A stretch of 64,000 bases of DNA from an uncultured Bacteroidota bacterium (GTDB lineage Bacteria > Bacteroidota > Bacteroidia > Flavobacteriales > Flavobacteriaceae): assembly GCA_902622595.1 (NCBI GenBank), contig CACNQM010000001.1, positions 372,001 through 436,000 on the forward strand. Direction: 5' to 3'. The notes beneath the pieces were generated by a model. The model ran no database searches. It was not told where the DNA came from and saw nothing but the letters and a program-made list of their open reading frames with translations. Position 1 is the first letter of the stretch. The number at the start of each line of letters is the position of its first letter. Positions 42,197 through 44,286 of this stretch are shown here, piece by piece. A program made the translations under genes and the position numbers.

Positions 42197-42700
42197 ATGA
42201 AAAATAAAATTAAAGTTTTACTGAATATTTCAATTTTTGCAATTTTTGGATTAATATTTATTGGCTGCCAGACTAATCAGGAAAGTGATCAATTATCTCA
42301 AAATTTGGAGACTTATGAAGAGGTTTGGTCAAAGTTTTTTAATGACAGGGACATGGATGTAATAAATAGTGAATACTTCACAGATGAAGTAACTGTAGTT
42401 ATACCAGGTGATAATATAGTTGGAATTGAAGGACTGAAAAATTATTATGGAAATTATTTAACTGGATTTTCTGATGCTGAGTTTACTTTTATTGATTTAT
42501 TTGGTCAAGGTGATAAACTCGTAAAACACTGGAATTTCAAAGGTACACATGATGGTAATTTTGCAGGAATACCAGCAACTGGTAAAAAATTAAACCTTTA
42601 TGGTACAACACTAATTCTAATGGAGAATGGTAAAATTAAACAAGAGCAAGATTTCTTTGATAACCTGGATTTCTTAACACAGTTAGGGCTAATGGAATAA
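42197..42700 (+). CDS. SnoaL-like lipoprotein
   Basis: 167 residues; signal ends IFIGC (lipobox). The mature domain is an NTF2-like/SnoaL ester-cyclase pattern: TYEEVWSKFFNDRDMDVI helix, TDEVTVVIPG, IVGIEGLKNYYGNYLTGF, then KLVKHWNFKGTHDGNFAGIPATGKKL and IKQEQDFFDNLDFL. The HxGxFxGIPxTGK stretch is typical of SnoaL-like proteins. It is membrane anchored and ends in a strong terminator, 25 bases on. Ligand unknown. Confidence 0.82.
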   Translation: MKNKIKVLLNISIFAIFGLIFIGCQTNQESDQLSQNLETYEEVWSKFFNDRDMDVINSEYFTDEVTVVIPGDNIVGIEGLKNYYGNYLTGFSDAEFTFIDLFGQGDKLVKHWNFKGTHDGNFAGIPATGKKLNLYGTTLILMENGKIKQEQDFFDNLDFLTQLGLME

Positions 42701-42724
42701 AATTTAATAGTCTTTATTAAATTT

Positions 42725-42753
42725 AAACCCTCATGAAAATGAGGGTTTTTTTT
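42725..42753 (+). terminator. Intrinsic terminator of the SnoaL-like gene
   Basis: AAACCCTCAT and ATGAGGGTTT form a perfect 10-bp stem closed by a GAAA tetraloop, followed by a T run (eight T including three in the stem). Confidence 0.9.
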
Positions 42754-42812
42754 ATAACTAAATATTCATATTTTTTTAATGTATAGATAACACTATTAAA
42801 CTATAAAAACTT

Positions 42813-42820
42813 CAAGTTTG
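42813..42820 (+). promoter_or_regulatory. -7-like box CAAGTTTG of small RNA A
   Basis: CAAGTTTG is TAnnTTTG with one change. Applying the four-base spacing seen at the leaderless genes puts the transcript start on G42825, the first paired base of the RNA hairpin. No TTG element was evident about 20 bases upstream. Confidence 0.45.
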
Positions 42821-42824
42821 TTAT

Positions 42825-42900
42825 GCTTTTATTCTTGAAAGCTTTTCGTATTTAGTTTTGTTTATAATTAACCCTCTTTTAATTAAGGGGGTTTTTTTTT
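42825..42900 (+). ncRNA. Candidate small RNA A
   Basis: Predicted transcript of about 70-75 bases. It begins with a hairpin, GCTTT (42825-42829) with AAAGC (42838-42842), whose loop contains TATTCTT. A single-stranded stretch of about 27 bases follows, then the terminator AACCCTCTT/AAGGGGGTT (42870-42878 with 42885-42893, one T-G wobble) and a long T run. The parts correspond one to one with those of RNA B downstream. No start codon with a reasonable frame is present. Target and function are unknown. Confidence 0.55.
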
Positions 42901-42956
42901 ACTATTTATTCATCGTTTTTTAATGTACAGATAACACAAACAAACTAATAAATTCT

Positions 42957-42964
42957 CAAATTTG
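42957..42964 (+). promoter_or_regulatory. -7-like box CAAATTTG of small RNA B
   Basis: CAAATTTG differs from TAnnTTTG only at the first base. The four-base spacing puts the start of transcription on G42969, again the first base of the hairpin, just as in unit A. Confidence 0.45.
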
Positions 42965-42968
42965 TAAC

Positions 42969-43033
42969 GCTTCGTATTCTTGAAGGCAATAGTTTTGAAG
43001 TAACCCTCGAGGGAATAATCGGGGGTTTTTTTT
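42969..43033 (+). ncRNA. Candidate small RNA B
   Basis: Predicted transcript of about 65 bases. GCTTC (42969-42973) pairs with GAAGGC (42982-42987, one bulged G) around the loop GTATTCTT; compared with RNA A the pair T-A at the loop end has become C-G, a compensatory change. After about 14 bases comes the terminator AACCCTCGA/TCGGGGGTT (43002-43010 with 43019-43027, one T-G wobble) and a T run to 43033. The serine hydrolase promoter begins right behind it. Confidence 0.55.
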
Positions 43034-43034
43034 C

Positions 43035-43042
43035 TAAATTAG
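43035..43042 (+). promoter_or_regulatory. -7-like box TAAATTAG five bases before ATG
   Basis: TAAATTAG lies between the T run of small RNA B and the ATG at 43048, so the hydrolase gene has its own start of transcription. Confidence 0.5.
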
Positions 43043-43047
43043 TTACT

Positions 43048-44286
43048 ATGAAAAAATTATTTGTACTTATATCTATATGCATTATATCTCTTTCTTGTAA
43101 TAGTAATGTTGAGATTGATATGGAAACAGAATTTAATAAAACTGACTTACCCTCTGCTGTTATGGGTAAGATCTCAAAAGATGGAACAATGAAGTTTTAT
43201 TCATTTGGTAATGAAAAATGGGACAATGACACTAAAAAAGCTGACGAAAATACAATCTTTAACATAGCTTCTATGACTAAAGCTATAACATCTGTTGCTA
43301 TTCTTCAATTAGTTGAAAAAGAAAAAATATCTCTTGATAGTCCAGTTTCAGATTATATTCCTGAGATAAATCAACTTAAAACACTAACCAATGATTCATT
43401 TGAGGTATCACTTCAACCAATTACTATTAGAAATTTGTTGACTCATACATCAGGTATTGGATACTGGTTTACAAATCAAGCTATAGCTAATGATATTCAA
43501 AATGACATAGAAGATGATTTCTGGCCAAAGGATGACGTGATAAAAGATGGAGAATATGACTGGAAGTTTGGCACTCAGCCAAGACAAGTTTTTGAAGCAA
43601 ATCAAAGATGGTTATATGGAAGGAATCTTGATATTGCAAGTAGAGTAATTGAAAAAATATCTGGCCAGAGTTTGGAATCATACTTTATTGAAAATATATT
43701 TAATCCACTGGGAATGCACAGTACAAGGTTTAATTTAACGGAAGAATTGTTTGAAAGAAAAGCATCAAGAGGTTATAGGGATTCATCAACTGGAAAAATA
43801 ATTGAAAATCTTGATTGGCGTTTACCAGAGTTTAGCGAGAACCCAAATGGAGGAGGAGGTTTAAAAAGTTCAGCAAAAGACTATGGTACTTTTCTACTAT
43901 GCCTTCTAAATAAAGGAATACTCAATAATAGTAGAATATTAAGTGAAGATAGTGTTGAGCTATTAATGGAAAAGCAATTAGATAATTTTAATATACAATG
44001 GGATTCTGTATCCTCTGCAGCTGCATCTGATTCAAATTTGCAGATGAGTTTCTTAGATAACAACGATAATCATTCTTTAGCATGGGCTCTTGAAACTAAT
44101 CCTAATGAAAAAATTAGACCTCAAAATACTGGATATTGGGCTGGAATTTTCAACTCATATTATACATTTGATCCAGAAAATGAATTAGCCATTGTTTACT
44201 TTAGTCAATTTTTACCTTTTAATGATGAAACATCCTTTACTTTGTATAAGAAATTTGAAGAAAAGGTTTACAATGAAATTAAATGA
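43048..44286 (+). CDS. Serine hydrolase lipoprotein (beta-lactamase class C/esterase family)
   Basis: 412 residues with lipobox LSC. The Ser-x2-Lys catalytic motif is in ASMTKAIT (about residue 75), the helper Tyr is in LYGRNLD, and the domain has the NPNGGGGLKSSAKDYGTF stretch typical of beta-lactamase-type esterases and D-aminopeptidases (PF00144). It works outside the cytoplasm on esters, peptides or beta-lactams; true beta-lactamase activity cannot be claimed. A second lipoprotein gene follows 19 bases later. Confidence 0.9.
   Translation: MKKLFVLISICIISLSCNSNVEIDMETEFNKTDLPSAVMGKISKDGTMKFYSFGNEKWDNDTKKADENTIFNIASMTKAITSVAILQLVEKEKISLDSPVSDYIPEINQLKTLTNDSFEVSLQPITIRNLLTHTSGIGYWFTNQAIANDIQNDIEDDFWPKDDVIKDGEYDWKFGTQPRQVFEANQRWLYGRNLDIASRVIEKISGQSLESYFIENIFNPLGMHSTRFNLTEELFERKASRGYRDSSTGKIIENLDWRLPEFSENPNGGGGLKSSAKDYGTFLLCLLNKGILNNSRILSEDSVELLMEKQLDNFNIQWDSVSSAAASDSNLQMSFLDNNDNHSLAWALETNPNEKIRPQNTGYWAGIFNSYYTFDPENELAIVYFSQFLPFNDETSFTLYKKFEEKVYNEIK

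Follow-up and report, generated by a model that had tools for sequence, protein, structure and literature searches.

What do two similar, adjoining stretches of DNA do between a SnoaL-like gene (42197-42700; SnoaL PF07366, E 5.6e-25) and a beta-lactamase-fold gene (43048-44286)? The window, by which we mean the whole 64-kb stretch of DNA that was analysed, is a piece of a 1.34-Mb genome (G000) in 9 contigs that is 85.7% complete and has a G+C content of about 30% (364 kb sampled). A terminator scan of positions 42600-43150 on both strands gave five sites, against 0.1 expected from shuffles. The + strand holds four of these five, at three places, and there are three terminators in a row between the flanking genes: that of the SnoaL-like gene, which sets this gene apart from the first unit (u1), that of u1 itself, and that of the second unit (u2). 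The T run of u2 reaches to 43033, and the next gene opens with its start codon at 43048. The 14 bases between them (43034-43047) are too few for a promoter, and a transcript of the beta-lactamase-fold gene that began upstream must therefore cross the u2 terminator. The locus is laid out as follows.

42725-42748, + strand: terminator of the upstream SnoaL-like gene (terminator scan)
42757-42900, + strand: u1, whole unit, 144 bases
42763-42820, + strand: u1 upstream block, 58 bases (gapless alignment of eight units)
42783-42792, + strand: u1 upstream element ATAGATAACA (family RYARRYAACA)
42813-42820, + strand: u1 -7-like box CAAGTTTG
42825-42900, + strand: u1 predicted RNA, about 76 nt, putative start (box spacing, terminator, conservation)
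42825-42842, + strand: u1 predicted 5' hairpin, 7 pairs, loop UUCU (pair probabilities 0.93 to 1.0)
42843-42857, + strand: u1 unpaired segment UUUUCGUAUUUAGUU, candidate pairing region (mean unpaired probability 0.92)
42870-42893, + strand: u1 intrinsic terminator stem-loop, followed by a T run (terminator scan)
42901-43033, + strand: u2, whole unit, 133 bases
42907-42964, + strand: u2 upstream block, 58 bases (gapless alignment of eight units)
42927-42936, + strand: u2 upstream element ACAGATAACA
42957-42964, + strand: u2 -7-like box CAAATTTG
42969-43033, + strand: u2 predicted RNA, about 65 nt, putative start (box spacing, terminator)
42970-42985, + strand: u2 predicted 5' hairpin, 5 pairs (full-length pair probabilities about 0.3 to 0.56)
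43002-43027, + strand: u2 intrinsic terminator, T run to 43033 (terminator scan)

A DNA search located a third copy of the unit in the same genome (C2:235255-235389), and among 60 genomes (this one and 59 relatives) there were near-full-unit matches in G005 (two), G008 and G022. Six listed matches from that search span most of one or both units; 15 others are short and were left uncounted, many of them lying over terminator letters (query 114-147). A covariance model built from seven units found an eighth copy that was absent from its seeds (G005:C13:12662-12812, 144 bits). Across the 25 genomes of the genus, only two of which are at least 90% complete, the model gave eight matches of 115 to 149 bits over its full length, in 4/25 genomes. 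Because the seven seeds match the model by construction, the real tests of the family are the eighth copy and a scan for the upstream block pattern. The latter found four stretches in 84,980 genomes, against a chance expectation of 0.05 at a uniform 30% G+C, and the three uncultured Bacteroidetes in which they lie (AG-894-I17, AG-893-B06 and AG-912-I19) are the same genomes as the unit carriers G005, G022 and G008. The initial annotation had suggested that u1 and u2 could be sibling regulators and had named a lack of copies in related genomes as a refutation; the copies are there, and the sibling relationship of the units is likewise supported.

At greater distances, the model matched the own genome alone among 149 genomes of the family, and four genomes among 395 of the order: the own genome and three, from other families, with weak matches of 34.6 to 43.5 bits. 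The weak matches were rejected by eye as not unit-like, except for one doubtful candidate (L107, in G240) that sits between two terminator-like stem-loops. In the covariance searches only part of the candidates was scored (124 per genome for the genus, 20 for the family and 7 for the order), and distant members could thus be missed. Matches to the 3' part of the model alone, in G024 and G011, are terminators beside tRNA genes and were not accepted as units. A search for a degenerate unit beside the G005 copy that is the positional orthologue of u1 (G005C3) gave only chance-level scores (unfiltered; best other 16.7 bits, E 0.11), as did one between a 250-residue gene and the phytase gene in G000 (best other 16.4 bits, E 0.027).

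The promoter side of the two units had been described as sharing 32 of 37 bases. Aligned in register, u1 and u2 are indeed identical at 32 of 37 upstream positions, a match reached by none of 500 dinucleotide-shuffled pairs, the best of which gave 27/37. The conserved segment was, however, stated too short, since a block of 58 bases aligns gaplessly across all eight units. In this block a RYARRYAACA element is followed, 20 bases on, by a [C/G]AA[A/G]TTT[G/A] box, with T-rich stretches and a TATAAAAATCT-like stretch also inside it; the (C)AAnTTTG box claimed for both units is found as CAAGTTTG at 42813-42820 and CAAATTTG at 42957-42964. A looser form of the block pattern, allowing up to three mismatches, occurs in the own genome at the three units and nowhere else, and its backward control gave no match there; both the pattern and the finding that it is confined to the units here are computed directly. 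A palindromic operator, TGT-N7-ACA, was recognised by eye only in u1, u2 and G005C3 and is therefore no feature of the family.

The first base of the box sets it apart from the box that is enriched upstream of genes in this genome. In the available part of PMC9723704, TAnnTTTG is given as the sigma-A box in Flavobacterium. Among 314 genes of the own genome (364 kb out of 1.34 Mb), TAnnTTTG lies upstream of 70, as against 26 in shuffles, whereas boxes starting with C or with G show no enrichment (11 and 5, versus 9 and 9 in shuffles). All eight units, unlike TAnnTTTG, have C or G at this position, and their box is thus atypical. From these sequence patterns, the simplest account would be an activator that binds upstream of the box, or else a different sigma factor. 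The atypical box also means that the spacing seen at leaderless genes, by which the transcript starts had been placed at 42825 and 42969, gives these positions only approximately.

Downstream of the block, the predicted fold of u1 has a hairpin at the 5' end, then an open linker, then a terminator (z -4.15); for u2 the z value is -2.88 and a competing fold is predicted in the 5' half. The loop core TATTCTT noted earlier is present in the hairpins of both units, and their terminators are alike, both with AACCCT.../...GGGGGTT and the same U.G pair. A stem-loop also stands at the terminator position in the five other copies that were folded. The change between a T-A and a C-G pair in the stem, reported from the two units, is real, and a second stem pair covaries across the family: in the eight copies taken together, two of the seven stem pairs show changes in both partners, and standard pairs fill 48 of 56 cells (8 copies x 7 pairs) with the structure placed by hand. 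In the G008 copy the 5' stem is lost. G005C3 has a mismatch in the stem, and the hairpin is absent from its predicted fold (probability 0.01). The stems of G022 and G005a are one pair shorter, with the outer pair missing, and the hairpin is retained in the full-length folds of C2, G005a and G005b. These statements draw on full-length pair probabilities for u1, G005C3 and u2, with G022 folded as a stem only. A conserved 5' hairpin, as initially proposed, thus has two covarying pairs in its favour but is broken or disfavoured in three of the eight copies, u2 being weak, and from the predicted folds it appears less secure than the upstream block and the terminators.

In a comparison of one species pair, with segments picked after viewing the alignment, u1 and its syntenic copy in G005 are identical at 32 of the first 33 RNA bases, at 26 of 26 terminator positions and at 47 of 58 positions of the upstream block, while 65 of 87 fourfold sites are identical in three neighbouring genes of the same two species. 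The segment UUUUCGUAUUUAGUU that follows the u1 hairpin is unchanged in this orthologue. Like the units, the family and the terminators, the conservation of the RNA between the two species is computed directly, and on these alignments the RNA is kept better in its sequence than in its predicted structure. A small peptide as the product was considered and rejected. The 10-codon ATG frame of u1 opens two bases ahead of the predicted RNA start, neither u2 nor the G005C3 orthologue has its start codon (by eye), and the ATG frame of the C2 copy meets a stop after one codon; no conserved ORF was seen by eye in the eight-unit alignment.

The C2 and G022 copies lie after a DUF975 gene, and the next ORF beyond the C2 copy (38 codons) begins about 170 bases downstream. 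In G005, a 3'-end fragment of a DUF975 gene (G005:C13:12825-12965, L075) stands just upstream of a unit, and the same contig carries the full-length DUF975 gene, with no unit beside it, at a distance of about 6.4 kb. The spread of the units was probably aided by segmental duplication. The G008 copy and one of the G005 copies (G005a) are each convergent with a phytase gene, the 3' end of which lies towards the unit; in this arrangement the unit cannot be the gene's leader. The G005 and G008 copies are near phytase and TonB-receptor genes (the receptor named by eye), and the G005 copies are also near a PhoD-like phosphatase gene. Because of the phytase and PhoD-like neighbours, we asked whether the units contain a Pho box. 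No 11-base repeat shared by all eight units was seen by eye; the block pattern occurs nowhere else in the own genome, and the immediate neighbours of the two window copies are no phosphate genes. We therefore did not assign the units to a Pho regulon, and we keep this link as a weak lead.

Some observations on the same neighbourhoods stand apart from the units. Phosphate uptake may differ in the genus: PstS (PF12849) passes its cut-off in none of the 25 genomes and has weak matches below it in 11, despite the phytase and PhoD-like genes near the units. The 250-residue gene near the units, which in G000 has no Pfam match, has a shorter open frame in G005 (181 residues; L034:5794-6339) than in G000 and G008. 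A further conserved non-coding element, at G000:C2:236599-236789 (L003:4600-4790), is 84% identical to G008:C5:8385-8566. A TAnnTTTG box, a core of GCTTTTCATATTAATTAAGAATATGACACTTGCCC and an end resembling a terminator were recognised in it by eye, and no Rfam family matches it at gathering score. A stretch 83% identical to its first 60 bases lies at G008:C1:41355-41414, there ahead of a different terminator pair.

In our judgement u1 and u2 are probably members of a lineage-specific, multicopy family of trans-acting small RNAs of about 65-80 nt. We infer transcription, its start points and a regulator, and, with much the same confidence as this reading as a whole, the action of the predicted RNAs in trans. 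Each unit would carry its own promoter, in the 58-base block, and its own terminator, and a polymerase that depends on an activator or carries an alternative sigma factor would read the promoter. Base-pairing of the conserved stretch behind the 5' hairpin with mRNAs, perhaps close to their start codons, would lower the translation of those mRNAs. As tandem siblings, the two RNAs would share a signal and reach partly different mRNAs; since the bodies of u1 and u2 differ, separate targets are possible.

The linkers that follow the hairpin are UUUUCGUAUUUAGUU in u1, UUUUCAUGCAUUCGG in G005b and UUUUUAUAAGUAAGG in G005a, and u2 is without such a linker. When G.U pairs are counted, the linker is antisense to AUGAAAA start contexts, and ATGAAAA opens 62 of the 314 sampled genes. 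A nine-base window of the u1 linker matched 18 start regions, where counts taken elsewhere predict 4.4, a result equalled on both count and ratio by 5 of 300 shuffled 9-mers; for the G005b and G005a windows, tried on G000 genes, 2 of 300 shuffles each were as good. The C2 and G008 windows were unremarkable on start-region counts (68 and 51 of 300 shuffles as good). Over the same 314 start regions, the mean duplex energy of the u1 linker was -9.35 kcal/mol, versus -8.01 for its shuffles (0/60 as good) and -8.28 for a stretch deeper in the same genes, and the values for u2 and C2 were no better than those of shuffles (9/60 and 24/60 as good). A U-rich RNA pairs readily with A-rich start regions, and this result is thus a lead only; we put forward pairing near start codons, clearest for u1, as a tentative proposal. 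A bolder version, which we regard as speculative and hold with low confidence, is a private circuit in which a dedicated activator or sigma factor would have the three sRNA promoters as its sole sites in the genome, and one signal would lower a set of exported proteins. The conserved RNA segment would be antisense to start-codon contexts (NNAUGAAAAGC), and the C/U and A/G changes between copies would keep the pairing through G.U.

These proposals have to be weighed against readings in which the units are not independent regulators. For u2, the distance of only 14 bases from T run to start codon, the terminator that any upstream transcript must cross and the competing fold in the 5' half are compatible with an attenuated leader of the beta-lactamase-fold gene, at which a signal would decide between stop and read-through of polymerase that had started at the u2 promoter or farther upstream. 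However, u1 has the same anatomy and precedes u2 rather than a gene, the copies in G008 and at G005a are convergent with the neighbouring gene, and the C2 copy has its next ORF about 170 bases away. The beta-lactamase-fold gene that matches best in the genus (G013, 47% identity) is without a significant unit, and no antiterminator was recognised by eye. The position of u1 and the convergent copies led us to reject a riboswitch or attenuator leader for the family as a whole; for u2 alone the leader reading persists, and we think it unlikely. It is also quite unlikely, in our view, that the units are repeats or passengers that segmental duplication has spread and that have no regulatory role of their own. 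Such a history would fit their patchy occurrence (4/25 genomes), the paralogues at unrelated places and the G005 copy next to a truncated DUF975 copy with the full copy some 6.4 kb off, but it is at odds with an upstream block and spacing that stay gapless while the linkers vary, and with an RNA part that is better conserved between two species than fourfold sites. The exact block pattern had no match in viral contigs and there was none in phage records, and so a phage origin was rejected; no transposase was recognised by eye in the ORF lists.

The well-conserved upstream block, with a pattern confined to the units in the own genome, might also belong to promoter-terminator cassettes that act as DNA, either as a decoy for a regulator or as an insulator between genes. 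Yet a conserved 5' part of the RNA and a terminator would both be superfluous in a decoy, the RNA segment of 33 bases in u1 is more conserved than the predicted promoter in the comparison with its orthologue, and the own genome has no further pattern site where a soaked-up regulator could act. We rate this as very unlikely. That the units are diverged forms of a known RNA (6S RNA, RteR or a cis-regulatory RNA) seems barely credible. Rfam 15 gave no match at gathering score in the window, in line with the earlier remark that no described flavobacterial RNA of such a form was known, and the sub-threshold matches in 42700-43100 number 19, many of them over terminators. One of these, to RteR (RF04181), runs across all 84 model positions at u2. 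RteR, a Bacteroides RNA, shares with the units the character of a small sRNA family and this weak full-length alignment, but the match was rejected: its 22.6 bits are far below the gathering score of 72 and, with an E value of 0.34, at chance level. 6S-Flavo (RF01685) is likewise a small RNA gene in flavobacteria; its sole match in the genome is at a separate locus (G000:C3:67733-67837, 106.1 bits) and the units are unmatched, which led us to set 6S RNA aside.

Seen as a family of trans-acting small RNAs, the units can be likened, by description and not by sequence, to FopS and GibS of Bacteroides thetaiotaomicron, which are multicopy sRNAs of about 65-70 nt in Bacteroidota and which, in the available parts of the source papers, are described as binding near the start codon of target mRNAs and repressing translation (PMC11697453; PMC7366714). 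The targets of the units, by comparison, are predicted. According to the same parts, FopS has 14 members, 9 of them intergenic, with canonical sigma-ABfr promoters and an R1' seed, and the GibS promoter is a non-canonical motif, PM2 (PMC11697453; PMC7366714). In contrast to these 14 members, the units have three copies in their own genome, two of them in tandem, and the canonical TAnnTTTG of FopS differs from a box with C or G as its first base in 8/8 units and with an upstream element besides. The atypical box and PM2 are alike in being non-canonical, a likeness of description rather than of letters.

Among the Rfp RNAs, Rfp18 of Flavobacterium psychrophilum affects metalloprotease mRNAs, as reported in the available part of PMC9723704. 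The units would resemble these RNAs as independently transcribed small RNAs in Flavobacteriaceae. As described there, Rfp18 is strongly structured, pairs through its third stem-loop and is widely conserved in its genus (PMC9723704), whereas the units have at most one 5' hairpin and a terminator and occur in 4/25 genomes of another genus; this distinction, too, is one of description and not of sequence. Among the matches listed in literature searches on flavobacterial and marine Bacteroidetes small RNAs, and on conserved RNA motifs and paralogous sRNAs, none evidently describes the family.

As intergenic sRNAs, the family would be of an already known kind; what is unusual is a predicted promoter pattern that seemingly serves it alone. 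What is known of small RNAs in the Bacteroidota comes largely from Bacteroides and from fish-pathogenic Flavobacterium. If our reading of u1 and u2 is true, and uncultured marine flavobacteria with small genomes have a multicopy sRNA family, even streamlined ocean bacteria keep dedicated RNA regulation, and the upstream pattern would offer a way to search ocean metatranscriptomes for the signal.
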